Notes: a model not told the origin generated them from the letters alone. A DNA stretch of 64,000 bases from Elusimicrobiota bacterium (GCA_016209035.1 JACQWX010000001.1:32157-96156); one strand, 5' to 3'; shown: positions 9,070 to 57,371, counted from the stretch's first letter. Translations and numbers: made by a program.

Positions 9070-9082
9070 AATAGCCCCGGCC

Positions 9083-10369: not shown

Positions 10370-10387
10370 CCCGAGGCCGTCGTTCCG

Positions 10388-11749: not shown

Positions 11750-11756
11750 AAAGCGG

Positions 11757-11829
11757 TGGACCTAATCGGGATCGAACCGATGACCTCCTGCATGCCATGC
11801 AGGCGCTCTCCCAGCTGAGCTATAGGCCC
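11757..11829 (-). tRNA. tRNA-Ala (anticodon GGC)
   Basis: GGGCCTATAGCTCAGCTGGGAGAGCGCCTGCATGGCATGCAGGAGGTCATCGGTTCGATCCCGATTAGGTCCA folds as a cloverleaf; anticodon loop ATGGCAT. Confidence 0.95.
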
Positions 11830-11859
11830 TATACGCTGACATTATAGCAGTTTTTCCGT

Positions 11860-40122: not shown

Positions 40123-40164
40123 GAGCGGTATTGTACAAAGAGTTCCGCCGGCGCCGGATGACAT

Positions 40165-42942
40165 CTACTCCACCCGAACTTTGTCGGACAAGCCAAGATC
40201 ATCGAGAATCTGGCGGATATCGGACTCAAACGCATTTGCCGCCTCGTTTTCCACCGTGACCGTGAACTCGATGCCGATCTGGAGTTCCCTGCCTGACCGC
40301 AATTTGGGCAGAATCCTGGTCCCGATTCGATTCCAGACCTCGGACGGGACCTTGCCCGCGAGATGGAACGTCCTCGTTTTTGCGTCCTGTTGTATGCTTG
40401 GAGACTGGCAGACCGGCTCCTGCTGCGGCGTCAATCCATGGTATGGTTCCCGCTCTAGGATCGGCTTGGCTTGCGGGGTCGGCGACGCCTCCGGTTTTGC
40501 GCCGGTCTTCAACCCCTGAGCGCATGACTTCGTGAGCAGGAAAACGTCCGGCTCGAAGCAGACCTCCTCAATCCCCAACGGTTCGCCGAGCCACACCCGT
40601 TCATACACCCCCTCCGCTTTTCGGCCGGAGGCAAATCCGAAGTCGCCCCGGATTACGAACTCGACTATCTTGCCCCGCAGGATTCCATCCGGATCAATCA
40701 ATCGTGTCAGCGAGCCATTGAGGAAACTCTGCCGAAGGCTTGCAAGCGGCCACGCGCCCGACTCCTTCAGGGCAGGAGGCCAGTTCCGCTCGATGTATCC
40801 CGCTCCCACGGATTCGTCCAGAAGCGCCTGACTTTTCAGGGCGGTGATGACACGGCCGCATAGCGTCTCGCCGCTGGATGAATGTCCGGCCCCGAGGTCA
40901 ATGACCTTGAGCCCGTCGGTTTCTCTGGCGTCCGCGATGACGGCGAACCGGTATCCGCCCCAGACCTCGTCCTTGGCGGCTTCCTCTGCCGCCAGGGCCT
41001 TGGACTGGATTTCGGCGCGGTCCGCGCGGTCAAAGTCGCCGCCGAGAGTGCCGTCGGAGATCTCCCGCGCCACCCGTTTCCAGGCCAGCCACATCTCGAC
41101 GCTGTCGCGCAGGTCGCGGCCCGGCTTCTTCAAGCACCACACGAGCGACCCCGGATAGAGTCTCGGGGACTTGCCCCGCAAACGGGTCCACTGCGCGATC
41201 TCTTGGCGAAGCGCGGTCTTTCCGGTGCATTCGTGGGCCGGGTCCATGGCCACGGGCGCGAGTCTCGGGGTGTCCTGGACGGCGGAGCCGTCCTCCGGGA
41301 ACGGGATGACGGGAACGCTCGCCCCGCGCCTGAATTCGTCCTCGACCAGTTTTCGCATGGCGGGCCTGATCTCGGAATCCTCATCCAAAGATGCCCGCCG
41401 GTCGCTCACCACCTTCTTCATGGTAGGCTGGTGGCTGATCTTGAATCCGTCCGAGCCGACCTTGCGGATGAAGTAGGACTTGTCCTCCAACGCGAATGCG
41501 GCGTTATCCACGGACGTCGTATCCACCTCCGGCTCGCCGAGCGCGAACCGCAGCTCGGGCAGGTGCGCCACTTTGTCCACCTGCCCGCCGGAGGATTCAA
41601 ACAGAACCGCGGTGGCCACGCGCCGGTGGATGTTCTTCAAGTTTCCCTGCGTATCGGCGTCAAGCGCCCGGGCGTGGGACTGCGTTCCCGAGATGTCCGC
41701 GTCAATCGCCGCCACCAGCCGGGTCTCCCCAAGCTGCCCAAGGATGATGCTTTGAAACTCATGCGCCTCCAGCGGCGCGGACCCGAGCGTGATTAGAGGC
41801 TCGCGCCGGGCCAGTTGGTATCCTTCCTTGTAGGCCCAGGCAATCCACTGCGCCAGCATGGCGAGCGTCCCGCGTGTTTGCTGATACTGCGGCAACGCCT
41901 GCCATTTCCTCTGGAACACGGAAAGCGTGGCCGGATGGAATGGATAGCAGGTCTCAAATCGCTCGCGCAGGTATTCCCGCGCCTTGACTTCCGTGGCCGC
42001 GGTGTCTACGGCCGTCCATTCAGGCGGGAGCTGCGCCCGGCGCTCAAAACACCAATCCGCGTAGGTCTTGGCGATGTTCTTGCGAATCCTATCACTCCCG
42101 ATGTCATCGAACAAGCGCCGGCGGACCACTTCGCTGATCTCGGTCTCATCGTTGGCGATGAGGTCCTTGGCCACGCGGCGGACGATCTTCGTGATCCTGT
42201 CCTGCCATTGCATGTCCCAATCGGTCATTTCAACCTGGCTTCTCGGCAAACTGATGACCGCAGCACCCCGGACGGTGCCGGTCGTCGCCACGGTCAGGTT
42301 CTGTAGGAAGGCGTGGAATTGGTCGGCCATGCCCCGGTGGCGGTTCAGGTAGTTCAGGACTTCGTCAAAAAGGATGAGCACCGGGCCGCCGGCCGCCTGG
42401 AAAACGCGGGCGATAGCCTCGGTCCCCGGCGGCGTCGTCTTGGCCGAAGCCCCAAGCTCCTTGACTCCCTTGTCCCCGGCCAGTTGCCGGGCGACGTCGA
42501 TCCAGGGCGTCTCCCGGCCTTCCTTGGGGTCCCATGCGTTGCCGACGAAAGCGGCTACCCTGGCCTCAGGCACGGCCTTGAGGCCGGCCTCCTTGATGAG
42601 GTCGCCGACCCCGGGATACTCGACCGCCTTCTTCCCGTTTGAAACGATGTGATATAGAGCCGTCAGCGTGTGGGTCTTGCCGCCTCCGAACTGTGTAATG
42701 AGCGTCATGACCGGCGCGGTGTTCGCGGTCTCGCCTGAGAGCCTCCTCAGCACCATGCCGGCGTGCTCCCTCAGCGCCCGGGTGAAGCAGGTGCGGGCGA
42801 AGAAATGCCTGGGTTCCCTGTAATCCTCGGGGGCGGTCTTGGCGATGACCTGCTCCAGATGAATGGCGAACTCGTCGGGGTTGAACGAGCGGCCGTCGCG
42901 GACTTCCTTGCGCAGCGTAGCGATCTTGTGCCAGGGTTCCAT
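40165..42942 (-). CDS. DUF499-type (COG1483) AAA-like ATPase of a defence-island system
   Basis: MEPWHKIATLRKEVRDGRSFNPDEFAIHLEQV...FFARTCFTRALREHAGMVLRRL...VMTLITQFGGGKTHTLTALYHI...GPVLILFDEVLNYLNRHRG. Confidence 0.85.
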   Translation of the reverse strand: MEPWHKIATLRKEVRDGRSFNPDEFAIHLEQVIAKTAPEDYREPRHFFARTCFTRALREHAGMVLRRLSGETANTAPVMTLITQFGGGKTHTLTALYHIVSNGKKAVEYPGVGDLIKEAGLKAVPEARVAAFVGNAWDPKEGRETPWIDVARQLAGDKGVKELGASAKTTPPGTEAIARVFQAAGGPVLILFDEVLNYLNRHRGMADQFHAFLQNLTVATTGTVRGAAVISLPRSQVEMTDWDMQWQDRITKIVRRVAKDLIANDETEISEVVRRRLFDDIGSDRIRKNIAKTYADWCFERRAQLPPEWTAVDTAATEVKAREYLRERFETCYPFHPATLSVFQRKWQALPQYQQTRGTLAMLAQWIAWAYKEGYQLARREPLITLGSAPLEAHEFQSIILGQLGETRLVAAIDADISGTQSHARALDADTQGNLKNIHRRVATAVLFESSGGQVDKVAHLPELRFALGEPEVDTTSVDNAAFALEDKSYFIRKVGSDGFKISHQPTMKKVVSDRRASLDEDSEIRPAMRKLVEDEFRRGASVPVIPFPEDGSAVQDTPRLAPVAMDPAHECTGKTALRQEIAQWTRLRGKSPRLYPGSLVWCLKKPGRDLRDSVEMWLAWKRVAREISDGTLGGDFDRADRAEIQSKALAAEEAAKDEVWGGYRFAVIADARETDGLKVIDLGAGHSSSGETLCGRVITALKSQALLDESVGAGYIERNWPPALKESGAWPLASLRQSFLNGSLTRLIDPDGILRGKIVEFVIRGDFGFASGRKAEGVYERVWLGEPLGIEEVCFEPDVFLLTKSCAQGLKTGAKPEASPTPQAKPILEREPYHGLTPQQEPVCQSPSIQQDAKTRTFHLAGKVPSEVWNRIGTRILPKLRSGRELQIGIEFTVTVENEAANAFESDIRQILDDLGLSDKVRVE

Positions 42943-42945
42943 AAA

Positions 42946-43539
42946 TCACCTTCCTGCCGTCGTCCATGATGCCGGCGGCCAAGCCGCCGGCGGCTGTCCC
43001 ATCTGCCGCAGCAGATCGCCGACCGCCTTGACCAAGTGCCGGAATGACCGGCTTCGATGGTACGCCTGGGCCATGTCGAATACCGCGCTCAGGGCCGCCT
43101 GATCCTGGGTTTCACGATATGGCCTTTCCATCAGCTTCTCCAGGGCTTCCTTTGCCCCGCGCGGCCGTTCCGGGTCCGTATCCCACTTGGCTTCCCTTGC
43201 AATTCCTCTCCGGCCTCTAAGCGAATCAAGAGCGGCAAGAAACCAAGCCTCGTATTCCCGGTGAGCCAGGGCGATCGCGAAAGGCACGCCACCGGCCCGG
43301 ACCGCCGCCCATCGGCCCAACAGCGGGCCGAGCTCCGCCGGGCAACCGTCCTCATCCTCAAAAAGAACGAGAATTCCGCCGCAATTCTCATACATGAGGG
43401 CCAGTTCCACGGAAGTTTGAAGGCCGTGCTCGCTCAGGAGGGCGCTATCGCGAGCGCCTGCTTCGCAGGCCAAGCGGCGAAGCAGAACCGGCACCGCATC
43501 AGCCTCGCCATGGCCTTCGACAATCGGCTGGATGTTCAC
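42946..43539 (-). CDS. DUF4276-like TOPRIM-type protein
   Basis: MNIQPIVEGHGEADAVPVLLRRL...GGILVLFEDEDGCPAELG...AHREYEAWFLAALDSLRG. Confidence 0.78.
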   Translation of the reverse strand: MNIQPIVEGHGEADAVPVLLRRLACEAGARDSALLSEHGLQTSVELALMYENCGGILVLFEDEDGCPAELGPLLGRWAAVRAGGVPFAIALAHREYEAWFLAALDSLRGRRGIAREAKWDTDPERPRGAKEALEKLMERPYRETQDQAALSAVFDMAQAYHRSRSFRHLVKAVGDLLRQMGQPPAAWPPASWTTAGR

Positions 43540-44732
43540 GCTACTTCCTCGAAAAGGTCGCCATTGCGCAGCGCCTCATCCTCTTTGAAAAGGGGCTCCG
43601 GAAGAAGCGCGTTGGAGCGCAGCAACTCACCGGCGCCCATCAAGTGCTTCCGCAAAGCCTGGCGAGAGCTTGACGCCAGGGGCCGAACGACCGATGCTCC
43701 TTCGGACCAATTCGCAACGCGAAGGCAATCGTCGTTGACCCAGTCGGCGTCCAGGAGCTCCGGGCTGTGCGTGGTCACCACCACTTGGACACGGGATGAT
43801 GCATCACGCAGGAGGTCCAGTATGGCGCCGAGCGCGCCCGGATGGATGGTGGCTTCCGGCTCTTCAACCACCAGGATCGAAGGCGCGGGGCGCTGGAAGA
43901 CCGCCATCAACAGGCCGACGGCTCGCAGCGTGCCGTCAGACATGCTGAAGGCCTCCAACTTCAGCTTGCCCTTGTTCCCCCAAGTCTGGGCGAATTCCAT
44001 CGTCAGCTTGTTGCCGTGCTTCTTGGGCTGCACCGAACGGGTATTGGGAACGATTGTGGCCAGAAACTCGCAGACGTCGTCGATCCTGCCCCCCTTCTTG
44101 CGCACGATCTCCTGAAGCACGCTGGCCGCATTGCTGCCGTCGCTCTTCAAGGAGGCGCCTTGGTCCGGATCCTGCATGTCGCGCAAACGCGCCGGCTCGA
44201 TGGCATATCGCCTCATCCCGCTGAAAAGCCTCAATGCCGGAGCGAAGCGGTCGTCTCCGCCGACAATGGGAAGGCAAAGGGCGGTCGGATCAAGCGCGGG
44301 CTTGAGCCCTTGGACGTTGGTTTCAAAGACTCTCTTTCGATCGTACCAGAAGCGATTCCCGTCGGCATGGCGCGTCAAACACTGCTCCCGCACGACCTCG
44401 AAACCATACCCCGGCAGGGCCCTGACTTCAAAGGCGAATCGCCCTCCGGCCATGTTGCCGTTGATCGGCCCGAATTCGAATCCCAAACCAAGATTGGGCG
44501 GATAACTCCGGCCGGAAGTCATGTTGCGCACTGCCGCAATCCCTCCCCGCTTGTCGAACGCGGCCTGCAATTGCAGGGACATGCAATCAGACATGAAGGC
44601 GAAAATATCGGCGAAGTTGCTCTTCCCCGCGCCATTGCGTCCCACGATGAAAAGCGGGTTCTCAAACTCCACCATGTCCGCGGGAAAGCTGCGGAATCGC
44701 TTTATCACCAGCCGTTTAACCGAAACTGACAT
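43536..44732 (-). CDS. OLD-like AAA_21 ATPase
   Basis: VIKRFRSFPADMVEFENPLFIVGRNGAGKSNFADIFAFM; C-terminal PSILVVEEPEATIHPGALGAILDLLRDASSRVQVVVTTHSPELLD. Confidence 0.88.
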   Translation of the reverse strand: MSVSVKRLVIKRFRSFPADMVEFENPLFIVGRNGAGKSNFADIFAFMSDCMSLQLQAAFDKRGGIAAVRNMTSGRSYPPNLGLGFEFGPINGNMAGGRFAFEVRALPGYGFEVVREQCLTRHADGNRFWYDRKRVFETNVQGLKPALDPTALCLPIVGGDDRFAPALRLFSGMRRYAIEPARLRDMQDPDQGASLKSDGSNAASVLQEIVRKKGGRIDDVCEFLATIVPNTRSVQPKKHGNKLTMEFAQTWGNKGKLKLEAFSMSDGTLRAVGLLMAVFQRPAPSILVVEEPEATIHPGALGAILDLLRDASSRVQVVVTTHSPELLDADWVNDDCLRVANWSEGASVVRPLASSSRQALRKHLMGAGELLRSNALLPEPLFKEDEALRNGDLFEEVA

Positions 44733-44769
44733 GATGCGCCTCCTCGTATATTATGCCACACGGCGCGAG

Positions 44770-45396
44770 TCATTCGTTCCCGCCACCACTGGCTGAGTAA
44801 ACGGCTCGCAGATTGGTTCGCAGATCGTCCGCGAAGCTCTTCAACGACCGGTCGTTCTTGCCTGCCCGGTACAGGTCCATGCGCTCGACCAGTTCCTGGG
44901 CAAACTCGATTCCTCCCAGGGTGGCGGGATGACCGGCCTTCCGAATCGCCTTTGCGAGCGCGTTCTTGTAGTAGTCCCGCGAACATTTCTTCTTGGCAAC
45001 CGTCGGCCAAAGACCGACGACCTCCTTGAACGACTCCGGATCGGCCAGATACCAGCGCTCCACGTGGGGATCAGGACAGGCCACGACCAGCCGGCTGGAG
45101 AAGGGGGCATGGGTGGCGCCTTTGATGGCCTTCTTCGCCTTCGCGAACGTCGAGCAGTTGCCGTCGATTCCGGCGATCAGCAGGTCCGGGGCGGTCGCGC
45201 CGGCTGCGCCCTTCCGCACGAGATCCTGGTAGCGCCCCAACTCGGCGACGGCCCGGCCGTGTCCTCCACGCCCGGATCTCACCCGTGGCGTGACCGCCAC
45301 ATCCTCCTCCCGTGCGATCCGCCGCAGCATCGGGACCAGAAAGGCCTCGTGCGCGCGGTCCTCGACGAAGATGTCCACCGCGACAGGGCTACTCAT
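44770..45396 (-). CDS. TOPRIM/DUF4276-like putative effector
   Basis: AVDIFVEDRAHEAFLVPMLRRIAREE...PDLLIAGIDGNCSTFAKAKK...VVACPDPHVERWYLADPESF; overlaps the upstream ATPase stop. Confidence 0.65.
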   Translation of the reverse strand: MSSPVAVDIFVEDRAHEAFLVPMLRRIAREEDVAVTPRVRSGRGGHGRAVAELGRYQDLVRKGAAGATAPDLLIAGIDGNCSTFAKAKKAIKGATHAPFSSRLVVACPDPHVERWYLADPESFKEVVGLWPTVAKKKCSRDYYKNALAKAIRKAGHPATLGGIEFAQELVERMDLYRAGKNDRSLKSFADDLRTNLRAVYSASGGGNE

Positions 45397-46624
45397 CGAG
45401 CATCCCTCTCAGGAGCAGGGTCTCGAAGAGGCCGTCCTCCGTTCCAGTCGTGAGCGCGTCGGCGATCTCCCGATCTTTGAACAATGGGCCCGTGACATCG
45501 AAGGGCCCAACGACCGTCGCCTGCCCGTCCCGTCGGACGTTGAACAGCCCGATGTCCCCAGGCCGCGAGCGAGCGCCTTTCAGTACGGCATCGCAGAACA
45601 GCGGCGAGTGCGTGGTGACGACGACCTGGCGCCCCTGTTCCAAGGCCAGGGAGAGCAGGAGCTGGACGATCAGATCGAGCCGGCGGGGATGGACGCCGTT
45701 CTCGGGTTCCTCAAAGGCGAATAACGACCCGCCCCACGGGTTCACCGCGATTGCGCAGAGCGCGAGAACCCTCAGCGTGCCTTCCGAGATGATGCGCGAG
45801 GAGTAGTCGACGCCGCCCTGCCGGAAGAGAATATCGAGCGTGCCGCGGCGTTTGTCGAGATCGACCGTGAGATCCTCGACGCTTGGCACGATCGAGCGGA
45901 GGGTCCGCGAGACCGCTTGGAAGTGCTTCGGATAATCGGCTCGCAGCCGATACAGAAACGGGGCGATCTCGCCGCCGAGCACTCCGATGTCGCGCACGTC
46001 GGACGGGGGCTGCGCCGCACGCATGGCGACGCGGGGGTCGAGGTAGTAGGTTCGCCACCCCGACAGCTCGAGCCGCGTTCGTTCGATGGACCGGTAGAGA
46101 GGAGCGCCCAGCCTGGGATCCGACAGGACCGCATAGTTCTGTCGGAGAGGTTCATTGCGCGGCTTGCCTCCCTCGACCTTGCGCCGCACACGAAGCTTCC
46201 CCTCGATCTGTTCGATGGCGGGCGTATCCTTCGGCCTGCCGTCTTTCCCCAAGGCTGACAGGTACTCGTCGGCTACGGCGAGAGCGCCGGAACCCGGAAC
46301 GATCTCCACCTCGACGCGATATCGGTAGACGTCCTTCTCCCGCGTCAGGTCCGCCTCGATTGAGAAGCGCCCGGACGGAGCCGCGAGCAGCTCGGCCAGT
46401 CCGCCGGAGGGGAACAGGAAGGCTTCAATCGGGTATCCCCGGATCGGCTCGCTGAGGGCGTCGGCGAGCGTGCGTTGCGTGCCGATCCGCGAGAGCGCCT
46501 GGACGGCATCCAGCAGGTTGCTCTTTCCGGCGGCGTTGGGACCGAAGAGCACCGCCATTCGAGGGAACTTGACCTTCACATCCTTCAAGGACTTGAAGCC
46601 GCGGACCGCGAGACTTCTCAGCAT
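45389..46624 (-). CDS. OLD-like AAA_21 ATPase (second)
   Basis: MLRSLAVRGFKSLKDVKVKFPRMAVLFGPNAAGKSNLLDAVQAL; LFAFEEPENGVHPRRLDLIVQLLLSLALEQGRQVVVTTHSPLFCD. Confidence 0.88.
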   Translation of the reverse strand: MLRSLAVRGFKSLKDVKVKFPRMAVLFGPNAAGKSNLLDAVQALSRIGTQRTLADALSEPIRGYPIEAFLFPSGGLAELLAAPSGRFSIEADLTREKDVYRYRVEVEIVPGSGALAVADEYLSALGKDGRPKDTPAIEQIEGKLRVRRKVEGGKPRNEPLRQNYAVLSDPRLGAPLYRSIERTRLELSGWRTYYLDPRVAMRAAQPPSDVRDIGVLGGEIAPFLYRLRADYPKHFQAVSRTLRSIVPSVEDLTVDLDKRRGTLDILFRQGGVDYSSRIISEGTLRVLALCAIAVNPWGGSLFAFEEPENGVHPRRLDLIVQLLLSLALEQGRQVVVTTHSPLFCDAVLKGARSRPGDIGLFNVRRDGQATVVGPFDVTGPLFKDREIADALTTGTEDGLFETLLLRGMLDE

Positions 46625-46634
46625 GGGTTCCTCC

Positions 46635-49600
46635 TCATCTCGGGACAGCCAGGAGCATCGCGTCGATCAATCGCTTCTCTTCGCTGCCTGATGGATAAAG
46701 CGCGGACAGGGCGTTCGCCAGGCGCACGAAGTCCGGACTGCGCTCAACCTCGGCCTTGATGAGCGCCCGCAAGGCGTTCGCCTGGCCCCCGGCCTGGAGC
46801 AGCATCGCCGCGTGCACCCGGTCGAGCGTGGTCGCGGCATGCTCCGTCTTCATCTCGATGTCCCGAGCGTCCACGGCGATCCGCCCGCGACGGCCGCGAA
46901 TCTTGGGCGCGCGTTCTTCCTCCAATTCAGGGAAGAGCAACTGCTGGAGATCTTTCTCAGGATCGCTTTCCAGCCAGTCTGCCGCGGCATCCGACCCGCC
47001 CTCGCCGAAGATCTGCTTTGCGCGTTCGGACACCGCCAGCAACCTGACCACGCCTTTGCGGGTCTCAATGATCCGGCCTTCCCACCTTGGGAGTTCAATC
47101 CCCAGCGGCTGTGCGAACCGGCGCGCCACGTCGAAGACGAGGCTGAACCCCTTGGGCTTGGCCTTAGGCGCCGGCTCATCCTCATCATCGCCGCCGGCTT
47201 CCTCATCGTCTCTAGAACCATTGGAAGAAGCCGCCGAACCGTTCGTGCTCTGGAGCGTCCAGAGAAAAAGGGCGGTAAGCCGCGCGTCTTCCTCGACCGC
47301 TCCGGCGGCTCCGTTTCGAGCCTTGGCCTCTGCCGTCCCAAGGACCTGCTCCAAGGCCGAGCGCCCCACGACCTCCCATACCTTCGCAAGGTATTCGGCC
47401 AGTTTGACCTCCCGGCCTTCCGCGGTCTCGACCTTCCGGTACCTGCTGAAAATCTCCAAAGCCGGGCCGATGCAGGCGAAAACAAGGTCCGCGCCGCGGA
47501 TTCCCTCGCCCTGTAGCCTCTCCATCCAGTCCCCCACGCGCTTGGGCAGTTCGCGCAGCACTTCTCCCCAGTCGCCGACTGGGGCGTCCTGTGGACGGGG
47601 GCGGCAAACCAGGTGAACGCTGGTAGCGAGGGCCGCGGACTCCTGGGAACGCAGACGGCCGGGGCGCTCCGTCGCGATAGGCCACGAGCCGGTAATCGTC
47701 CATCCTCCGCGGATCATGCCGGAGAGCAGCGCTTCCCAGCCTTCCGTTGTCTTGTGGGCGAACACCACGGCGCCGACGCCGTCCTCTCGCAGTACCCGCC
47801 GGCCTTCGGCGAAGGCACGGGCCATCGTCTCCTCGAACCACGCGCGATCCTTTGGACGCCCATTTACTTTCTTGGTCTCGTCCTGCACCGCCTCCCGCAT
47901 CTTGGGCGATAGCGGATTCGCTGGATCGAAGGAATCTCGTAGCCAAGGTTGGCCAACAAGAGAGCGCTTCAGCCAGACGAGAAAGAAATCGGACAAGTCA
48001 GAGTATGGAATAGCGTCATAGTACGGTGGGTCGGTGAACCAGATGGGGACTGTCTGATCAGGAAGCGGATGCTCGACCGCGTCGGCAAGTTGGACTTGCC
48101 CCGCAACGGATCCCTGGCATCCCCCGATCACTTCGCAAACCCATTCGATTGCTGCCGTGAAGTTGGACGCGAAGTCGCCTGTCGCAACGATCTCCGCGAA
48201 GTCCCACATCATCGGAAGGGCCTGCCGCCCGAATGTTCCTGCCACGGCCTCGACAGTCGTACGCCAACGCACCAGGGAAGAGGACTGCTCAGTACAACGA
48301 CTGACCGCGAGGGACAGCGCAGGCGAGACGTTCGTTGCCGCCGAGTCATGCACGTGGGAGCGTTGCAGCGTCATCAGCGCCACCTTCTGCCGCGCCGTGA
48401 AGAGGTCGCCCCACTGAAGCATGCCATATCGCTGAACGCGAAATCCGAGAGTCCCGACAGGTGGCAGTGGTTCATCCGGCACGGGGCAAAGCCCCTTTTT
48501 GCCCCCCCGTTCCCATCCATCGAGAATCGTCTTTAGGCGCGTCTGCGCCTTCCACACTGCTTGGTAGTCGCTTTCAACTGGCAGACGGTAATTGCGTCCT
48601 TGCATGCCGGACTTGAGCGTAACCACAGCCAGCATCCGCGCGCCGCCGGTGCGGCTACCCTTGGCATCGAAAATTGTGTCCCCGCCACCGCGTTGGTCCG
48701 CTAGTTGCGCCCGGACGCGCTCCGGCGACAGCACGTTGCCGCAGGCAAGGCACGTCGCCTTGGCTCGGGCAACAGTTCCGCCCGGGACTTCCTTCTCGTT
48801 CTTCGGTTCAAAGACCTCGAATTCTATCCGTGGCGGCTGCCCCTTAGGCCGAACTGCTCTGTGCCTTAGCGCACGCCGACGGTTCGCCTTGGCGCACAGC
48901 CAGAATGACCGTGCAAGAGGTATCTCCGCGCCGCAGTTCGGCGATTCGCAGCGCACGGTCCGCGCCCAGAGGTAGGCGATGGGAGTGGCCCCGTCCGGGT
49001 CCTTGGGGTAGAACTCGGCCAGTTCTTCCTCCGCGGCCTCTTTGATCTTCGCCCCCACGCGGCGGAGTTCTTCGGCAAGTTCCCGCCCGTGTCGGGGGAT
49101 GTCCTCCAGCATGGTCTTGAGAATGAGGCAAGCTACCGGGTTAAGGTCGCTGGCAAAGGCATCGCAGCCTAGGCGCAGCGCCTCAAGCGGGATGGAGCCG
49201 CCACCGGCAAACGGGTCAACGACTAGAGGGGGCTCCTTCCCATGCGCGGCTTTGACCAGGCCTCGTCCGACCTCCAGGTAGGCGGGTGCAGAGGAATGGT
49301 CCCAGTTCGCAAAATCCGCGATGAACTTGAGAAGGGTCCGGCGAAGGCCTTCATCCGTCTCGAGCAAGGCGTCCCAGCCGTGCGGCCTGCCCGACATGCC
49401 CAGCAGGATCTTGCGCGCTTTGTCTTTGAAATCCTTGGGGCAATTCTTATCGTCCGGATCTGGCAGGAGCAATGCAAGAAGCATCGCCCGGCACGCGGCC
49501 AGCGGCCTTCGCGCCCACCAAAGGTGAAGCGTACTGGGGTGCCCGTGGCGAATTGATTTTTCCCGCGCCGAATGGGCCGAGACCGCTGCAATGGGGAAAT

Positions 49601-49637
49601 CCACCTCCGCCAGGCGTTTGCAGTCTTTTGGGATCAT
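46635..49637 (-). CDS. DUF1156-type (COG1743) DNA adenine/cytosine-N4 methyltransferase
   Basis: MIPKDCKRLAEVDFPIAAVSAHSAREKSIRHGHPSTLHLWWARRPLAACRAMLLALLLPDP; VVDPFAGGGSIPLEALRLG; WFTDPPYYDAIPYSDLSDFFLVWLKR; Zn-ribbon-like cysteines. Confidence 0.9.
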   Translation of the reverse strand: MIPKDCKRLAEVDFPIAAVSAHSAREKSIRHGHPSTLHLWWARRPLAACRAMLLALLLPDPDDKNCPKDFKDKARKILLGMSGRPHGWDALLETDEGLRRTLLKFIADFANWDHSSAPAYLEVGRGLVKAAHGKEPPLVVDPFAGGGSIPLEALRLGCDAFASDLNPVACLILKTMLEDIPRHGRELAEELRRVGAKIKEAAEEELAEFYPKDPDGATPIAYLWARTVRCESPNCGAEIPLARSFWLCAKANRRRALRHRAVRPKGQPPRIEFEVFEPKNEKEVPGGTVARAKATCLACGNVLSPERVRAQLADQRGGGDTIFDAKGSRTGGARMLAVVTLKSGMQGRNYRLPVESDYQAVWKAQTRLKTILDGWERGGKKGLCPVPDEPLPPVGTLGFRVQRYGMLQWGDLFTARQKVALMTLQRSHVHDSAATNVSPALSLAVSRCTEQSSSLVRWRTTVEAVAGTFGRQALPMMWDFAEIVATGDFASNFTAAIEWVCEVIGGCQGSVAGQVQLADAVEHPLPDQTVPIWFTDPPYYDAIPYSDLSDFFLVWLKRSLVGQPWLRDSFDPANPLSPKMREAVQDETKKVNGRPKDRAWFEETMARAFAEGRRVLREDGVGAVVFAHKTTEGWEALLSGMIRGGWTITGSWPIATERPGRLRSQESAALATSVHLVCRPRPQDAPVGDWGEVLRELPKRVGDWMERLQGEGIRGADLVFACIGPALEIFSRYRKVETAEGREVKLAEYLAKVWEVVGRSALEQVLGTAEAKARNGAAGAVEEDARLTALFLWTLQSTNGSAASSNGSRDDEEAGGDDEDEPAPKAKPKGFSLVFDVARRFAQPLGIELPRWEGRIIETRKGVVRLLAVSERAKQIFGEGGSDAAADWLESDPEKDLQQLLFPELEEERAPKIRGRRGRIAVDARDIEMKTEHAATTLDRVHAAMLLQAGGQANALRALIKAEVERSPDFVRLANALSALYPSGSEEKRLIDAMLLAVPR

Positions 49638-49650
49638 CTTTCTCGCGCCC

Positions 49651-51126
49651 CTAACGCCGGGCAACTCCGCCCTTCCGCTTGAGGCCCAGGCCGAAGAGAA
49701 ACAGGTCAGGAATGTCCAACCGTCCATCGTGGCGTTCTCGAAATATGCCGACCTCGATGAGGTAGCCAACGAAATCCCGAGCGGAATCAGCGGGCAGGGA
49801 TGCCTGTGCGTCTTGCCCCTTCAGCGCATCCCACGACCGCTCCAGAACGCGCTCCACCTGCCTGCGGTCCCAGGGCACTTCCCTGGTGGCTGAGTCCTTA
49901 CTCAGAGACGCGCCAAGATGCTCAAGCCACTTCCATTCATCAGATGAATCCTTAACGTGCTCCTCTGAAACGGTTTCCAATGCTCGACGAAGTCGGCCTG
50001 GTTCAATAAGAATCGGCCACTTTGGATGAGTTCCCGTCTTGCGTTGTACCTCAGAGGCCGATTCAATCAGACGCACCAGCGGGCGAGGAATCGCCTGTCC
50101 GCGGCCATCGCGGATATGGTCAAGCAGCCATCGGTAGGTCAGGCCCTTCTTGACGTTCGCGCCCATGGAGGGGCCGATCATTCGATCAATCAAGGGCCTG
50201 GCCTGCTCAGGGCTGTCAATCTTTGGAATTTCCCCCAGTTCTGAATCGCTATCGAATTCGATTTCCGCCTCGCGGCAATAGGACAACAACTCCGTTGAGG
50301 TGTTGGCCATCCGCTTTGTCAACATCGCATAGAGATTGCGGTCGCTCCAGGATATCTCGACGCGGTTGGCGGCCAATTTCGAAAAGTCCGCGCCCGCGGA
50401 AGTCCCGATGCGTTGGTAAAGGTCGGTCCGCAGGAAGATCTTCGCACGAAGGCGGCGCCAGCGGCGCGTATAGTTGGCCCAGAAGGCGGCCAAACCCTGC
50501 ACGGCCGACTGCACGGCTTTCCAATCGCTGAGACCCAAGGTATCCAGTTCATCGTAGACGATGAAGACTCGGCGGTCATCATCAACGAGTTCCTGGTCCA
50601 AGGCGTCCAAGGCGGCAATCGGCGCGTTCCCTGCCTTCCTGAACGCCTTTAGGACGGCATCGGCATCACTTGCCACTGCCTGAAAGAGAGCATCCAATCT
50701 CGCAGTATCTGGGAGCTTGTCGCGGAGTAACCGAACCATGTACGCGAACCAAAGCTCAAGAAATGCCTCGCCGGTGACTTTGCCGGCAAACTTCTTCAAG
50801 CCCAGGGCATCGGGGAATTGGGCTTCGGCAGGATAAGCAATGACCAGGTCCGTGCGGTCGGGTGGCGGAAGCCTTAAGCTCAAGAAGCGTTTCGATAGCA
50901 CCGGCAGGAGATTCTTCTCGCAAACCGCTCGAAAGAGCGCCGTCTTGCCGGCGCCGCGCGGACCAATGACCAGTACCACATCAGGATCAAAAGCCCGAAG
51001 ATGCTCCTCTACTGGAAAGAATCTCTTGGGGAGGTTTTGCGCATCCTCTCCTTCGGCGCGACCCCTGCTCCCCATGAGGGTGAGGGAACTAAGCAAATCT
51101 GTCTGCTGCTGTGTTGCGGATGTCAT
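49651..51126 (-). CDS. P-loop ATPase (Sll1717/STAND-like)
   Basis: DVVLVIGPRGAGKTALFRAVCEKN (Walker A); RRVFIVYDELDTLG (Walker B-like). Confidence 0.75.
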   Translation of the reverse strand: MTSATQQQTDLLSSLTLMGSRGRAEGEDAQNLPKRFFPVEEHLRAFDPDVVLVIGPRGAGKTALFRAVCEKNLLPVLSKRFLSLRLPPPDRTDLVIAYPAEAQFPDALGLKKFAGKVTGEAFLELWFAYMVRLLRDKLPDTARLDALFQAVASDADAVLKAFRKAGNAPIAALDALDQELVDDDRRVFIVYDELDTLGLSDWKAVQSAVQGLAAFWANYTRRWRRLRAKIFLRTDLYQRIGTSAGADFSKLAANRVEISWSDRNLYAMLTKRMANTSTELLSYCREAEIEFDSDSELGEIPKIDSPEQARPLIDRMIGPSMGANVKKGLTYRWLLDHIRDGRGQAIPRPLVRLIESASEVQRKTGTHPKWPILIEPGRLRRALETVSEEHVKDSSDEWKWLEHLGASLSKDSATREVPWDRRQVERVLERSWDALKGQDAQASLPADSARDFVGYLIEVGIFRERHDGRLDIPDLFLFGLGLKRKGGVARR

Positions 51127-52463
51127 TCCTTTGTCCTCCCTGGAAACCGCGCGGCGATGCGTTCCGCCAGCATCATGTATTCAGGCGATTGAGCCAGATG
51201 GTCAGCAACATCCTCCAGTTTGTCGAAGTGGGCCAGTTTCTGATCATAGGATATTGCAATTGGAGCATGAGGGGCGTCGCTTGCCTCCATGTCCCGGACG
51301 TACCAGAAACGGTCCTCCTCTGTGTCCGCTGGATCTGGAGCGTAATAGCATTCGGAGAAAGCATCCCGGGCGAGATCCGAGAAAACCGCCTTCGATGTCG
51401 TCGCGGCTTTCGAATCCTCTGGCACCATGGCTTGCACCAGCAGGCAGTCTAATTGCGCCTTGTTCTCCAGCACCCGATCCGCGCCGATACGCCCGAGCAC
51501 GAGTTTCAGTCCCTGCCAAGTCTGCTGGGAGGTCGTCCCGAAGAGAACATGGAGGTGGGCCATGCCTCCGAGCAATGCGCCGGAGGGTTCTGAGAGTCCC
51601 GTCCGCGCGTCAAGGAGCAACCAGTGGGGGTTGAGTTCGGTCCGTATCTGCTCAAATAGCTGGGTCAGTACGTGTTTATCCTGGGGCGGCGGAGGCTCGA
51701 AATCTGCGCGAGCGAGCTTGCTCAGGTAAAGGTCATCGAGCGTTCCCGCGGGCACCACAAGGATCTCGCCTGAACCGGTGATTTCCCTGCGGCGGCAAGC
51801 GTGGTAGTAATCGCGCAGATCAACCGATTCCAAGGGACGCTCCAGGAGATAATCCAGCCCTCCCCATCTCGCGATGGTTCCCTTTTCATCAGCCGCGATC
51901 AGCGATCCGACTCCTGGAGCATCCAAATCCAAATCCACAACTGCAACGCGTTCTCCCAATCGGGCGCGCTGGATAGCAAAGGCCGCGAGAGTCGTGCTAC
52001 GCCCTACCCCTCCCTTGAAGGAGTAGAAAACCAAGATAGGCGGAGCCTGCTCCCCTTCTTCTCTCTGGGGGATCCATGGGGGTTCGGAGAGGCTTTCAAA
52101 CCAGGCGCCGCGATTGCGCCGGCGGTCTGTTGTGCGTACCTTATCGCTGCCGGAAACGCCCCTGCCCTCAGACCATGCTTTGTCATAAACGATGCGGTCA
52201 GCGGCCTCGGCTTTCGTCGCGTCCCATGCTTCGCCGGTCCAAAAAGCCGATCCGACGGCTTTAAGCGCGGCATCCAGCTTCTGGCGGAGCTCTTGACGGG
52301 TTGCGTCTTGGGAATCGGATCGCGCCCAAAAGACAAGCCGCATCTTTCCGAAAAGATCATCTATGAGGGCTACCCTTTCGATGGTGGAGTTCTGGGAGAC
52401 GAATGTCTTCAGGGCCGCTTCCGGGTAGTCGTCGCCATTCGCCTGCCGTATCCTAGATGCCAT
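51123..52463 (-). CDS. ParA/MinD-like ATPase with extra N-terminal domain
   Basis: PPILVFYSFKGGVGRSTTLAAFAIQRARLGERVAVVDLDLDAPG (deviant Walker A); ~150-aa N-terminal extension. Confidence 0.8.
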   Translation of the reverse strand: MASRIRQANGDDYPEAALKTFVSQNSTIERVALIDDLFGKMRLVFWARSDSQDATRQELRQKLDAALKAVGSAFWTGEAWDATKAEAADRIVYDKAWSEGRGVSGSDKVRTTDRRRNRGAWFESLSEPPWIPQREEGEQAPPILVFYSFKGGVGRSTTLAAFAIQRARLGERVAVVDLDLDAPGVGSLIAADEKGTIARWGGLDYLLERPLESVDLRDYYHACRRREITGSGEILVVPAGTLDDLYLSKLARADFEPPPPQDKHVLTQLFEQIRTELNPHWLLLDARTGLSEPSGALLGGMAHLHVLFGTTSQQTWQGLKLVLGRIGADRVLENKAQLDCLLVQAMVPEDSKAATTSKAVFSDLARDAFSECYYAPDPADTEEDRFWYVRDMEASDAPHAPIAISYDQKLAHFDKLEDVADHLAQSPEYMMLAERIAARFPGRTKE

Positions 52464-52513
52464 AGCGATAGCGGGAAAAGGAAGCGCCCGGCATCCGAAT
52501 CCTCGATTCGGTC

Positions 52514-52680
52514 ATGGCCGTTCTCCTCCATACGGCGGGGTATCCTCGCGGACCTGCATCGGTTTGGTCATGGCGTTGACTTCCATCCAGTAGTGCTGGA
52601 CCTTCTTGACCTCGTGCCAGGGGAAGTGGGCCGGGTCCTTGACGGGCTCCTGGAGGACGGGCTTGGCGGCGCAGCCCCGA
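52514..52680 (-). repeat. Duplicated fragment of the helicase-gene 3' end
   Basis: Near-identical to 54744-54905 (catacggcggggtatcctc.cg.acctgcatcgg.ttggtcatggcgt.gac.t.catccagtagtgctggaccttcttgacctcgtgccagggg...). Confidence 0.9.
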
Positions 52681-53290
52681 AAGCGCCCACTATCGCCTTC
52701 TCCCCGGCAGGGGTAAGCCGGTATTTCTGCAAGCGGCTGTTGGGCTTGTCGGGCAGCGTGTATTCAATCCATCCGGCCGCCAATGCGGGGTGTGGATAGT
52801 TGGCCCGAAAGGTCGGGCGATGCCTGATTCGTAACGCAGAACGCAGTTCCCCCGCGGACATCTCCCATCGAGCCAGGCAGGCCAGCAACCGCCCCACTGG
52901 GTCGGTTGACTGGGTCGCCGACTGGGTCGCCGACTGGGTCGCTGACTGAGTCCCCGATCGGGCATCAGCTATCTCCGCCGCGTCCTCCGCGACCAATCGG
53001 GTTTTGAACATTACAATAAGGAAGCCCTGCCGATCCTCGAAAGTGGGAGCCGGTGTCCCATGGTTCTTGCACATGGCAATGACGCGATTGGTACCGCAGC
53101 CCCAGACCTCCACCGCGCCGGTGCGGTGGAAGGCTCCGGCGATTCCCTCGGGAAAACGCGCGCCCAGCGGCATGGTCCGTTCGAGGAACGCCATGCCCTC
53201 GCGCACCATGGCGAAGGCGTTCATGTGCTCCTGCCGGTTGTCCACGATCTCCCCGGGGATGGCATATTCGATCATCGGACCACTTCCCAT
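52568..53290 (-). pseudogene. Mosaic truncated AlbA_2/COG2865 paralogue lacking the AlbA_2 domain
   Basis: GEIVDNRQEHMNAFAMVREGMAFLERTMPLGARFPEG|IAGAFHRTGAVEVWGCGTNRVIAMCK...TQSATQSATQSATQS...: internal deletion relative to ORF 53272-54747; a different C-terminus then runs into the helicase fragment out of frame. Confidence 0.8.
52896..52955. repeat. 12-bp minisatellite encoding (TQSA)n linker
   Basis: Five 12-bp units, consensus GACTGGGTCGCC. Confidence 0.85.
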
Positions 53291-54747
53291 CGTCCGCCTT
53301 TGTCGGGACCGATGCGCTGGATGCGGCCGTCTTTCTTCAATTTGCTGATCTGTTTTTCCACAGCGCGTGAAGTCAATCCCAAAGTGCCGGCAATCTCCCG
53401 GGCGCAGGCCAATGGGTTCCGCATCATCAGGGCCAGTACCTTCTCCGAACTTTTCTCCGAACTGTTCTCCGAACTTTTCTCCCTACTTTTCACCTGTCGG
53501 TCTAGCGGCTCTACCCCCGACTGGACCCCTGAAGTTGCCGCCGTGGCTTCGGCCACCAACCGCGCTTTGAACGTCACGATCAGGAAACCCTGCCGTTCCT
53601 CAAACAGGGGCGGCGGCGCGCCATGTTTCTTGCACATCGCGATCACCCGGTTGGTGCCGCGGCCCCAGACCTCCACAGCGCCGGTGCGGTGGAAGGCTCC
53701 GGCGATCAATGGATTGACCGGCTTCGAATCATGCCGCCCTGAAAGCTGTTCCACCGTGATGCCGGTCGGAAGGCGGCCGAAACTCCGAATCTCGATCCGG
53801 TCGTCGAAGATCACGATGGCGACGTAGCCGGAGTAGTGGGAGTAGTCGCGGTGCATGACGGCGTTGAGAAGGATTTCCCGGAGAGCGTCCAGCGGAACCG
53901 GGAAGCGATCCTCGCGGAATATCTTGCCCTCGGGAAAACGCGCGCCCAGCGGCATGGTCCGTTCGAGGAACGCCATGCCCTCGCGCACCATGGCGAAGGC
54001 GTTCATGTGCTCCTGCCGGTTGTCCACGATCTCGCCGGTGATTTCCGTTCCCCGGAATCGCCCCATCTTGAGAAGACATTGGGGCCAGTCCGGCAGGAAT
54101 CTCTTTCCGTAAAGCGCCTGGGCGGCCTGCGTGAGCACGCCCGCCGCCCGCAATCCCAGCCGGTCGAGAATTTCGCCGATGTCGCGGCTGGTATCCGGCG
54201 AAATCCGGTTTTGCTGGATGGCCAGCTCGCGCGTCCGCAGGATTCCCTTGCGGTCCAGGTCCTTCAGCGCCAGTCCGTCGGCGGAAAGGTTTTCCCAGCG
54301 GCGCTTGGCGTGGCCTCGCTCCACCAGAAGACGCTCGTATTTGGCCTGCGGCATCCGGCGCGTCGTACTGCTTACGCGCTCATAGGCGCGGCCTTCATGG
54401 GCGAAAGGCCGCATGTCCCGCCCGCCTTCCACCGCAACGACGATGACATCACGGCCCGACTTGACCTTGACACGGTGGATGGAGACATGGGCGGGAGGCT
54501 CGAAGCGGTCGGCGGCCTGCGCGACGTCGCGGAGCGTCTGGTCCGAGACCTCCTGCCCCTCGATTGTCCCGTCGGGCCGGACGCCGAAGAGCAACGTGCC
54601 GCCGGAGCCGTTCAGGAAGGCGCAGAGCGTCCGCATGCCTTCCTTCAATTCGCCGGTCGAGCGCTTGAATTCCAACGCCGGGCCTTCCCCCTCCTTGACA
54701 AGTAGGGCGATTTGCTTCGCGTTGGCGGGAATCCCGACAGCCGTCAT
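53272..54747 (-). CDS. AlbA_2 (Schlafen-like) domain, COG2865-type putative transcriptional regulator/ATPase
   Basis: KEGEGPALEFKRSTGELKEGMRTLCAFLNGSGGTLLFGVRPDGTIEGQEV; ALREILLNAVMHRDYSHYSGYVAIVIFDDRIEIRSFGRLPTGITVEQL; C-terminal wHTH. Confidence 0.9.
   Translation of the reverse strand: MTAVGIPANAKQIALLVKEGEGPALEFKRSTGELKEGMRTLCAFLNGSGGTLLFGVRPDGTIEGQEVSDQTLRDVAQAADRFEPPAHVSIHRVKVKSGRDVIVVAVEGGRDMRPFAHEGRAYERVSSTTRRMPQAKYERLLVERGHAKRRWENLSADGLALKDLDRKGILRTRELAIQQNRISPDTSRDIGEILDRLGLRAAGVLTQAAQALYGKRFLPDWPQCLLKMGRFRGTEITGEIVDNRQEHMNAFAMVREGMAFLERTMPLGARFPEGKIFREDRFPVPLDALREILLNAVMHRDYSHYSGYVAIVIFDDRIEIRSFGRLPTGITVEQLSGRHDSKPVNPLIAGAFHRTGAVEVWGRGTNRVIAMCKKHGAPPPLFEERQGFLIVTFKARLVAEATAATSGVQSGVEPLDRQVKSREKSSENSSEKSSEKVLALMMRNPLACAREIAGTLGLTSRAVEKQISKLKKDGRIQRIGPDKGGRWEVVR
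53439..53486. repeat. 12-bp minisatellite encoding (S-E-K/N-S) linker
   Basis: Four units, consensus TTTTCTCCGAAC. Confidence 0.82.
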
Positions 54748-57170
54748 GGCCGTTCCCCTCCATACGGCGGGGTATCCTCCCGCACCTGCATCGGCTTGGT
54801 CATGGCGTCGACCTGCATCCAGTAGTGCTGGACCTTCTTGACCTCGTGCCAGGGGAAGCGGGCCGGGTCCTTGATGGGCTCCTGGAGGATGGGCTTGGCG
54901 GCGCAGTTCGTGACCACGTAGAGCCAATAGCAGTCCCGGCGGTCCTCGGCCACGCGGCGCTCGTTGGGCGTAAGGAGGATGGTGCCCGAGGCGTCGCCCA
55001 AACCCTTGACCTCGATGAGCCGCAGCTCCCCGGAGCCTAGGTCAAGGCTCGTCACGTCGTAGCCGAGGTTCTTCTCGTGGACATCGCAAACCTGGCGGCC
55101 CTGGGCCTTCTCATGTTCAATCACCACCCGCATGGCAGCGGCCTCGGTTTCCGGGTTGGGCTGGAGCCTGCGCACTTCCGGAGTCTCGCGTTCGGGGTGC
55201 GGCAGGACGATGACGCTCGTGATGCGCTCGACGGCTTGGAGGGACAGGGAGCGCTGCCGCTCCAGTTCCTGCCTGCGCCGGTCGCGGCGGGCGGAAAGAT
55301 CAGCGTGCCGGGCTTCAGCCTGGGACAGCCTTCCCTCCGCGCCGGGAAGTTTCTTCTCGACATCCGAGGCGGCCTTGCCGATCTCCTCGTCAGCCCTCTG
55401 AAGAAGCTCGGTCAGGGACAGCTCCACGTGAGACGCGATGCGATCGACCTCGGAGAGCCGCTCCTTTCGGGTATCCTCAAGAAACGGCTGGAAGGCCGCC
55501 CTCTGGAGCCATGATGTCTCCTCCGGCGCGACCGCGACGCCCGGCATGTTCGAGGGAGCATTCGCGGGCGTGAAATTGCCGAGCAATCCCGGCTCTCGAA
55601 GAGAGGGCTCCTTGCCTTGCGCCACTTCGACGGCGAACAGCCGCTCGTGGATGACCTGCCCCAGCCCGTCGACAACGCGGGCGCGGTAGAAATCAAGGCG
55701 CGCAGGGCGGTCATGCTGGATGGAGTAAAAGCAGGCCCCCTTGCCGAACGCCTCCACGGCCTGCGCCTGGGCCGCGAGCCCGCGAAGGTCCGCGATTTCC
55801 TCGCGGACCTGCTGAGCGTTGCCCGCGAGGGTCATGGCTTCCAGCATCTTTTCCAGACGCTCGCGGTCCGCCTCCTCCATTTCATCGAGTTCGTCGGGAG
55901 CCGGGAGGTCCGGGGGGGCCTGCCGTGCAAGCTCCTGGGCGCGCTTCAAGCCCTCCTCCAGGCGTCGGGCGCGGTTTTGGAGACTGTGCCGCATGGCATA
56001 GGTGCTGGAGGCCAGCCTGCGCTGGTACAGGGACATCAGGAACCCGACCGCCCATGCGCGCGGATCGTCGCCAAGGGCTGCGGCCTTGGCGCTTTGGCGC
56101 TTGACGAAGCGCGTGACTTCCTGGTAGAGCTTGAACTCCAGACCGTCCATCTGGAAGTCCACGGTATGGGTGATGCGCTTGGTGAAGATCTTTTCGGCCG
56201 CCCACGTGCCGTCGGGCCTGCGCTCCGGGAAATAGACCATGGCCTCCTTGGTGCGGCGCAGGTAGAACGGCGCACGACGGCGGTCCATGGCTTGCCTGAT
56301 GGACTTCACGTCCGCGTACGCATCCGCGTCGAGCAGCTGAAGGAAGAGGCTGAAGTTATCGGGATCGCCCTTGTGCGGCGTCGCGGTCAGCAGAAGCAGG
56401 TGGTCGGACGTGTCGCGGAGAAGCTCGCCGAGCTTGTAACGGAGGCTCTTGTGGGTCTCATCCGCCGCCGACATGCGGTGGGCCTCGTCCACGATGACGA
56501 GGTCCCATTGGACCTGCCGCAGGCCCGGCAGGACGTCGTGGCGCTTGGCGAGGTCGAGCGACGTGATGACGCGTTTTTGCTCCAGCCACTGGTTCACGCC
56601 GAACTGCTCCCTGATCTCAGCCCCCTTCAGCACCAGGAACTGCTCGGCGAACTTCTCCTTGAGCTCGCGCTGCCACTGGAAAGCGAGGTTCGCGGGGCAG
56701 ACAACGAGGATGTGCTCGGCCAGCCCACGAAGCTCCAACTCCCGGATAAGAAGCCCCGCCATGATGGTCTTCCCGGCTCCCGCGTCGTCAGCCAGCAGGA
56801 AGCGCACCCGCGCGAGCTTGAGCAAGCAGTCGTAGATGGCCTCTAGTTGGTGGGGCAGAGGGTCCACGCGGGAAATGGAGAGCCCGAAAAACGGGTCGAA
56901 CTCGTAAGCGATCCCAAGAGCGTGAGCTTGGATGCCCAGCCTGAGTAGTTGCCCGTCGCCGCCGTAGGTGAAGCCTGCATCGAGGATCTTCAGCTTCTCG
57001 ATGTCGTGTACGGTCAGCGTGACCTTGCGGAACCGCTCCGTCTGAAGGCCGACCATGCCGGCGATCCAGGTGCCGGGACCGCCGGGGCGCACGGTCTCCA
57101 CGCGCATCGGCTCGCTGAAAAGCGGGCCCGTGACTACTTGGCCCTCCTGGATGGGTGGAGCGCTATTCAT
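54744..57170 (-). CDS. SNF2/DEAD-like superfamily 2 helicase with C-terminal DUF3883-like domain
   Basis: PLPHQLEAIYDCLLKLARVRFLLADDAGAGKTIMAGLLIRELELRGL; WDLVIVDEAHRMSA; LLLTATPHKGDPDNFSLFLQLL; C-terminal EKNLGYDVTSLDLGSGELRLIEVKGLGDASGTILLTPNERRVAEDRRDCYWLYVV. Confidence 0.92.
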   Translation of the reverse strand: MNSAPPIQEGQVVTGPLFSEPMRVETVRPGGPGTWIAGMVGLQTERFRKVTLTVHDIEKLKILDAGFTYGGDGQLLRLGIQAHALGIAYEFDPFFGLSISRVDPLPHQLEAIYDCLLKLARVRFLLADDAGAGKTIMAGLLIRELELRGLAEHILVVCPANLAFQWQRELKEKFAEQFLVLKGAEIREQFGVNQWLEQKRVITSLDLAKRHDVLPGLRQVQWDLVIVDEAHRMSAADETHKSLRYKLGELLRDTSDHLLLLTATPHKGDPDNFSLFLQLLDADAYADVKSIRQAMDRRRAPFYLRRTKEAMVYFPERRPDGTWAAEKIFTKRITHTVDFQMDGLEFKLYQEVTRFVKRQSAKAAALGDDPRAWAVGFLMSLYQRRLASSTYAMRHSLQNRARRLEEGLKRAQELARQAPPDLPAPDELDEMEEADRERLEKMLEAMTLAGNAQQVREEIADLRGLAAQAQAVEAFGKGACFYSIQHDRPARLDFYRARVVDGLGQVIHERLFAVEVAQGKEPSLREPGLLGNFTPANAPSNMPGVAVAPEETSWLQRAAFQPFLEDTRKERLSEVDRIASHVELSLTELLQRADEEIGKAASDVEKKLPGAEGRLSQAEARHADLSARRDRRRQELERQRSLSLQAVERITSVIVLPHPERETPEVRRLQPNPETEAAAMRVVIEHEKAQGRQVCDVHEKNLGYDVTSLDLGSGELRLIEVKGLGDASGTILLTPNERRVAEDRRDCYWLYVVTNCAAKPILQEPIKDPARFPWHEVKKVQHYWMQVDAMTKPMQVREDTPPYGGERP

Positions 57171-57371
57171 TCAAACATTTCTCGCAGGTTTCTTGTGCTT
57201 TTGCCCCTGCGCCTTGGCAACTTCCTCTCGGACGAAGAACCAAGCCGACCGGCCGCCGAGCCGGCGCCAGGGCCTGATCTTGCCTTTTTCAATCCAAGCG
57301 TAAAGGGTCTGGCGGGTGACCCCGAGCAAACTGCATGTCTCTTGGGTTGTCAGTATATCATCCGGTTTCAT
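57171..57371 (-). CDS. Small MerR/excisionase-like HTH protein
   Basis: DDILTTQETCSLLGVTRQTLYAWIEKGKIRPWRRLGGRSAWFFVREEV. Confidence 0.85.
   Translation of the reverse strand: MKPDDILTTQETCSLLGVTRQTLYAWIEKGKIRPWRRLGGRSAWFFVREEVAKAQGQKHKKPARNV

Follow-up and report, generated by a model that had tools for sequence, protein, structure and literature searches.

The 17-kb block examined here, from the genome of an Elusimicrobiota bacterium, raises the question of whether a dense run of defense-like genes is one system or several, and how its parts came to stand together. The block comprises 12 ORFs at positions 40165 to 57371 of the window (i.e., the whole 64,000-nt stretch of DNA that was analyzed, to which all coordinates refer unless a locus is named). 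The ORFs are tightly packed and co-directional on the minus strand, in the order HTH_17, helicase, AlbA_2, partial AlbA_2, ParA-like ATPase, P-loop ATPase, DUF1156 methyltransferase, two AAA-DUF4276 pairs, and DUF499 ATPase (Table 1). A preliminary description had listed at least 11 minus-strand ORFs, overlapping or close together, with a small HTH gene first and a DUF499 gene last. All of them were recovered, with two changes: the start of the DUF1156 gene was corrected to 49637, and the ORF at 52568 to 53275 proved to be a relic (see below).

The block, its insertion site, and its Hma core

Several ORF junctions in the block are overlaps of 4 to 8 nt or gaps of <15 nt. The overlaps (hmaA/AlbA_2, AlbA_2/relic, ParA/ATPase, and AAA/DUF4276 twice) suggest translational coupling of the neighboring genes. 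The block is less GC rich than the flanking genes (G+C content, 0.56 to 0.65 versus 0.68 to 0.72; GC3, 0.64 to 0.84 versus 0.91 to 0.93). Its neighbors, a gluzincin lipoprotein gene and rlmD, are divergent and lie only 39 to 136 bp apart in 16 related genomes, including a congener (G213) against whose sequence the left junction of the block is readable. Given that these two genes adjoin in 16 relatives, the block is, by gene neighborhood, an insertion between them. The position, the lower G+C content, and the horizontal acquisition proposed in the preliminary description are thus borne out.

Two features were observed beside the insertion. A TATTGTACAAA motif upstream of the lipoprotein gene (40133 to 40143) is common to the congener (L128 spacer), and the Hma block starts just past it. 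An ORF at 58953 to 60524 contains a long AEKERLAKEKAEKE-type repeat stretch rich in Lys, Glu, and Ala.

By homology, the core (hmaA, hmaB, and hmaC) is the Hma system of PADLOC (PMC8565338, Payne et al. 2021), a tripartite core that has also been described as the DUF499-centered BREX-related (BR) Type-1 system (PMC12839542). The window encodes the DUF1156 N6-methyltransferase (HmaB, with DPFAGGG and DPPY motifs intact in the alignment) and the DUF499 AAA+ ATPase (HmaC) of that system. HmaA shows clear homology to the Hma helicase (361 bits) and carries NOV_C, with Helicase_C deleted; by descent it is an Hma member, albeit an incomplete enzyme. A standalone DUF3780 gene, the marker of BR Type-2, had no match among the block proteins scanned with Pfam. 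No PADLOC match to the BREX markers PglZ and BrxC was found in any of the 11 ORFs scanned, and no match to DISARM DrmB/DUF1998 was found in the block ORFs scanned with PADLOC and Pfam. In PADLOC, HmaA matched BrxH only via the common helicase domain, which also accounted for the only matches to DrmD and DrmA. We rejected a BREX or DISARM identity because PglZ, BrxC, and DrmB are lacking, in agreement with the earlier view that the block resembles these systems without being either.

The cargo between the core genes is largely catalogued as well. Two HEC-01-type (Hma-embedded candidate) pairs, each with an AAA_21 ATPase and a DUF4276 partner inside Hma, and a PDC-M28B/C pair are already catalogued Hma cargo. 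The partner in the first HEC-01 pair is divergent, as its score of only 24 bits indicates, and the PDC-M28A component had no PADLOC match among the block ORFs scanned. The block previously described as a layered, defense-like composite therefore consists of a known chassis carrying cargo that is, for the most part, catalogued: the layering and the defense-like character stand, and the idea of a single unnamed system does not. Outside the catalogue are the deleted helicase, the AlbA_2/RecG_C slot-1 gene with its relic, and a copy of the hmaA 3' end between cargo modules.

Table 1. Features of the Hma block, with window coordinates
Feature	Position	Strand	Evidence
Small HTH_17/MerR-like gene, 65 aa, probable operon regulator	57175..57371	-	Pfam HTH_17 47.9 bits
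hmaA: SNF2/DEAD RecA1 + NOV_C (DUF3883), 808 aa, second RecA domain missing	54744..57170	-	PADLOC HmaA 361 bits in two stretches; NOV_C 73.8 bits
Junction of in-frame hmaA deletion	55740..55765	-	GGCCGTGGAG-like microhomology
Slot-1 cargo: SLFN_AlbA_2 + HATPase_c_4 (RecG C-terminal) + winged HTH, 491 aa	53272..54747	-	Pfam 72.2/76.8/27.6 bits
Relic of second AlbA_2 gene	52568..53275	-	Self-repeats; Pfam Fic-like_C 90.1 bits
Scar: 164-nt, 94% copy of hmaA 3' end (54743-54906)	52511..52674	-	Self-comparison
PDC-M28B, KGGVGR-type ParA-like ATPase, 446 aa	51123..52463	-	PADLOC 196 bits; NF047398 160 bits
PDC-M28C, Sll1717-family P-loop ATPase, 491 aa	49651..51126	-	PADLOC 220 bits; NF047389 105 bits
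hmaB: DUF1156 N6-adenine-type DNA methyltransferase	46635..49637	-	PADLOC HmaB 384 bits; Pfam DUF1156 85 bits
Slot-2 cargo 1: HEC-01A-type AAA_21 ATPase	45389..46624	-	PADLOC HEC-01A 174 bits
Slot-2 cargo 1: DUF4276 partner, HEC-01B-like	44770..45396	-	PADLOC HEC-01B 24 bits; DUF4276 30.1 bits, just below cut-off; 79-81% to L073
Slot-2 cargo 2: HEC-01A AAA_21 ATPase	43536..44732	-	PADLOC HEC-01A 336 bits
Slot-2 cargo 2: HEC-01B DUF4276 (TOPRIM-like)	42946..43539	-	PADLOC HEC-01B 176 bits; DUF4276 36 bits
hmaC: DUF499 AAA+ ATPase	40165..42942	-	PADLOC HmaC 290 bits; Pfam DUF499 48.6 bits

Loss of the second RecA domain from HmaA

The helicase had been taken for a complete SF2 enzyme, a claim that fails because window HmaA has no Pfam match to Helicase_C and its RecA2 domain is deleted. 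Residues 1 to 474 and 475 to 808 align to residues 38 to 511 and 847 to 1180, respectively, of the full-length homolog in L012 (1,181 residues). The 335 missing residues amount to an in-frame deletion of about 1,005 nt (~1 kb), and the missing stretch holds the whole Helicase_C domain (84.9 bits, at 481 to 597 in L012). The second RecA region is kept in all 60 relatives that span it. The nearest Elusimicrobia relative (L013) carries GGCCGTrGAG at both breakpoint positions, and the window junction reads GGCCGTGGAG; on these grounds, the loss looks like a microhomology deletion. Otherwise, the window has open reading frames for RecA1 with its Walker motifs, NOV_C, HmaB, and HmaC. An HmaA protein without the second RecA domain should be dead in translocation, and we infer that DNA translocation by window HmaA, and hence restriction by HmaA, has been lost.

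The deletion is read from one assembly, and most of the sequences compared are metagenome-assembled genomes. An assembly artifact that hides a fully active Hma core would fit the fragmented state of the genome (136 contigs) and the presence of the domain in 60 of 60 relatives. Such an artifact is nonetheless improbable, given that the junction is in frame, that the microhomology is too short to mislead an assembler, and that separate hmaA deletions occur in the same genome and in the nearest relative. In L013 (1334 to 4580), HmaA lacks 71 RecA2 residues and has a frameshift; this lesion is independent of the window deletion. The window genome contains another Hma locus, distantly related and from a different clade (L135; G000 contig C17, reverse complement of 5205 to 11592), in which hmaA has a deletion of ~460 nt with a frameshift. 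Both Hma loci of this genome thus carry deleted helicases. In L135, the N terminus of HmaB (115 aa) is also fused in frame to the C terminus of HmaC (441 aa) with the removal of ~4.3 kb, and the intervening AAA cargo gene is intact.

In the predicted division of labor, HmaB would mark self DNA, HmaC would scan and assemble, and HmaA would restrict. Defense in the window genome probably rests on the cargo (i.e., the AAA/TOPRIM nuclease-type pairs, M28, and AlbA_2). As the lost helicases suggest, cargo can survive its host system.

Cargo slots and core-gene scars

A scan of a genome collection anchored on HmaB yielded 80 loci from many phyla (54 to 73% identity). Across these loci, the order hmaA, slot 1, hmaB, slot 2, hmaC is kept, and the cargo in both slots is variable. 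A length of ≥600 nt was reached by slot 1 in 58 of 66 loci and by slot 2 in 47 of 69. Nearly all slot ORFs of ≥150 aa are co-directional with the core (119/122 in slot 1; 93/101 in slot 2). Among the families listed (the top 25 per scan), AlbA_2 was found in 12 of 97 slot-1 and 0 of 93 slot-2 cargo proteins, UvrD/GajB-like helicases in at least 8 slot-1 proteins, and DUF4276 and PIN in at least 12 and at least 6 slot-2 proteins, respectively. AlbA_2 is slot-1 specific across the relatives surveyed. It occurs frequently in other parts of these large genomes as well, and the relevant feature is therefore its preference for slot 1. A related Hma locus on plasmid pVV8 of the laboratory strain Thermus thermophilus HB8 (L103, 3900 to 16487), in which hmaA is inverted, Fic adjoins hmaB, and slot 2 contains HicAB and HTH genes, is a possible experimental model.

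Slot 1 of the window contains the AlbA_2 cassette, the relic, and the M28 ParA/ATPase cassette. Two HEC-01-type AAA/DUF4276 cassettes fill its slot 2. The nearest relatives of the AlbA_2 cassette are in Planctomycetota (L024 and L107), that of the first HEC-01 cassette is in Rokubacteria (L073), and that of the second is in Verrucomicrobia (L077); the M28 cassette had no close match in the other Hma loci surveyed. Judged by these relationships, the window cassettes assort independently, with their nearest relatives in different Hma loci of different phyla. An origin of slot 2 by tandem self-duplication of a HEC-01 cassette was rejected, since the two are divergent and neither is the closest relative of the other. 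The AlbA_2 gene of L024 (5584 to 8819; 78 to 82% like that of the window) is interrupted by ~1.7 kb with an opposite-strand transposase-like ORF.

Slot 1 of the window also holds a duplicated end of hmaA. This scar separates the AlbA_2 relic from the M28 cassette, ahead of the M28 genes, and includes the Shine-Dalgarno-like GGAGG of hmaA and the overlapping stop/start ATGA. The relic has a 116-nt stretch that is 98% like AlbA2_1, an internal deletion, and a Fic-like_C tail; its C terminus is an out-of-frame read of the copied hmaA 3' end. From this composition, the ORF is a chimeric relic. No scar was found in slot 2 of the window, where only a short spacer separates the two HEC pairs. A tblastx self-comparison of the window gave mostly noise.

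For 94 loci in which a slot could be evaluated (308 kb of slot sequence), we then searched the slots for fragments of the core genes of the same locus (blastn, E ≤ 1e-6). Not counting the window scar, 24 core-gene fragments were detected, all on the operon strand and all derived from the two core genes adjacent to the slot in question. For 22 of them, the source was the slot-facing tenth of the gene (expected, ~14%; Poisson-binomial P = 2.4e-17). A search of 614 kb outside the operons gave 13 matches, which lay mostly on the opposite strand and never showed the slot layout; nine represented one hmaC stretch in a single locus (L082). A protein-level search added scars in L021, L033, L034, L071, and L085. 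Altogether, scars occur in approximately 17 loci (the window and ~16 others; about a sixth), a count that includes the borderline L022 (near the 10% limit) and a decayed relic in L112, and ~77 of the 94 evaluable loci have no detectable scar. Weak mid-gene matches (L020, L033, L034 slot 2, L037, and L059) were set aside as low complexity or chance. A partial hmaB in L098 was not counted because it may be an insertion-interrupted gene; there (7843 to 12598), ~1.6 kb of DNA, perhaps inserted as a mobile element, interrupts hmaB, and ~21 residues are duplicated where the gene is broken.

The scars are 34 to 248 nt long, and several are hybrids. In slot 1 of L058, the first 34 nt of hmaB stand almost directly before the last 247 nt of hmaA, in frame (MIPKDCKRLDEA-TGMILLTPNER...), flanked by an NTase/HEPN pair and a Fic + UvrD pair. 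In slot 2 of the same locus, an hmaC 5' end adjoins an hmaB 3' end between DUF1828/1829 and DUF433/DUF5615 genes. Slot 1 of L114 has an hmaB 5' end next to an hmaA 3' end. Slot 2 of L108 has two scars: one is an hmaC 5' end followed by an hmaB 3' end, and in the other a HEC-01B-like gene breaks off after 18 codons, where a common GAGGCC links it to hmaB. Microhomology at the nonhomologous joint was read by eye in L108 (GAGGCC) and L058. L108, L112, and L114 belong to an independent draw of Planctomycetota genomes. The scars in L112 (a 6.4-Mb contig) and L025 (a 2.9-Mb chromosome record) argue against assembly chimeras.

Accumulation of cassettes and comparison with known systems

The facing-end scars in ~17 loci and the microhomology joints point to an array built by homology-facilitated illegitimate recombination. 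The recurrence of such scars across loci suggests that Hma loci accumulate cassettes by recombination at core-gene ends, and we consider it likely that the block is an Hma defense operon serving as a chassis for stacked defense cassettes, with scars from additive integration. A new cassette would arrive on DNA from another Hma locus. Homologous recombination within a core gene would anchor this DNA, and illegitimate (microhomology) recombination would join its other end. Because the second end is joined illegitimately, the new cassette would be added beside the old one without replacing it, and the old core-gene end would be left between new and old cargo. The retained end would also preserve a ribosome-binding site and an overlapping start for the next gene. 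Given that most loci are scar free, ordinary homologous replacement or decay must be commoner.

Slots could instead grow if microhomology led to tandem duplication of a unit (core 3' end, cargo, core 5' end) and the cargo in one copy were later swapped by ordinary homologous recombination. The hybrid scars (hmaB 5'/hmaA 3' and hmaC 5'/hmaB 3') resemble the expected duplication junction, and several scars (window, L058, and L073) are closest to their own core gene. Those in L034, L071, and L090, however, are closer to a foreign HmaA than to their own, all inspected loci carry unrelated cargo on either side, and in L108 the joint truncates a HEC-01B-like gene, as an incoming end would. We therefore regard tandem duplication as possible but unlikely. 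Insertion by a transposase or site-specific integrase, with the scars as target-site duplications, is very doubtful: IS elements occur in a few slots (ISL3 in L104 and the transposase-like ORF in the L024 AlbA_2 gene), but the scars vary in length (34 to 248 nt), derive from either of the two adjacent genes, and lack both a fixed end and a recombinase gene. A single coevolved 11-gene composite, as which the co-directional and tightly packed genes might be read, is scarcely credible, given that the set, expected to co-travel, is found together in no other surveyed locus and that relics and scars separate its independently assorting modules.

If additive integration is generalized, Hma loci may be integrase-free cassette arrays, in which the core-gene ends flanking the two slots act as universal recombination anchors. 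Any cell that received DNA from another Hma locus, even one in a different phylum, could then add new immune modules to a pre-wired operon, and over time the array may survive as a cargo platform after loss of the core restriction enzyme, as the deleted helicases of both Hma loci in this genome would illustrate. On this generalization our judgment is evenly balanced. Defense genes embedded in Hma have reportedly already been used to discover new immune systems. The scars physically record the boundaries of cassettes and the order in which they arrived, make the mechanism of cargo acquisition testable, and can define new cargo units without a catalogue (e.g., the slot-1-specific AlbA_2). Our literature search returned no description of such core-gene scars and no account of how Hma cargo gets in, although work on Hma-embedded defenses may hold either. 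Recombination is not mentioned in PMC12839542.

The system in the window is a known one (i.e., chassis plus catalogued cargo) with variant features: the deleted helicase, AlbA_2 as slot-1 cargo, and scars that mark cassette boundaries. It shares with Hma/BR Type-1 the hmaA helicase with NOV_C/DUF3883, the DUF1156 N6-methyltransferase, the DUF499 ATPase, and their identical order, and it differs in that HmaA lacks RecA2, the two slots contain four cassettes and a relic, and a core-gene scar lies within slot 1. Its two AAA_21 + DUF4276 pairs and its ParA-like + P-loop ATPase pair match the HEC-01 and PDC-M28 models of PADLOC-DB 2.0, whereas the tandem arrangement of two divergent HEC-01-type cassettes departs from HEC-01, and the AlbA_2 cargo has only weak matches and no strong model in the PADLOC cargo catalogue. 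In the RptR island, a Type I restriction-modification island with embedded DarTG (PMC12255303), defense genes are likewise nested in a defense operon led by a small regulator gene; the core is different, the cargo is single, and core-gene scars are not described in the parts of that report considered here. A parallel in mechanism is provided by type VI secretion system (T6SS) effector-immunity and Rhs orphan arrays, in which successive modules are added at a conserved gene, gene ends are left behind, and homology-facilitated illegitimate recombination has been proposed (PMC5361080, PMC8189183). Hma loci resemble these arrays in their modules stacked at a conserved gene with leftover gene ends, and differ from them in being anchored both upstream (by 3' ends) and downstream (by 5' ends), in carrying antiphage cargo, and in exchange across phyla.
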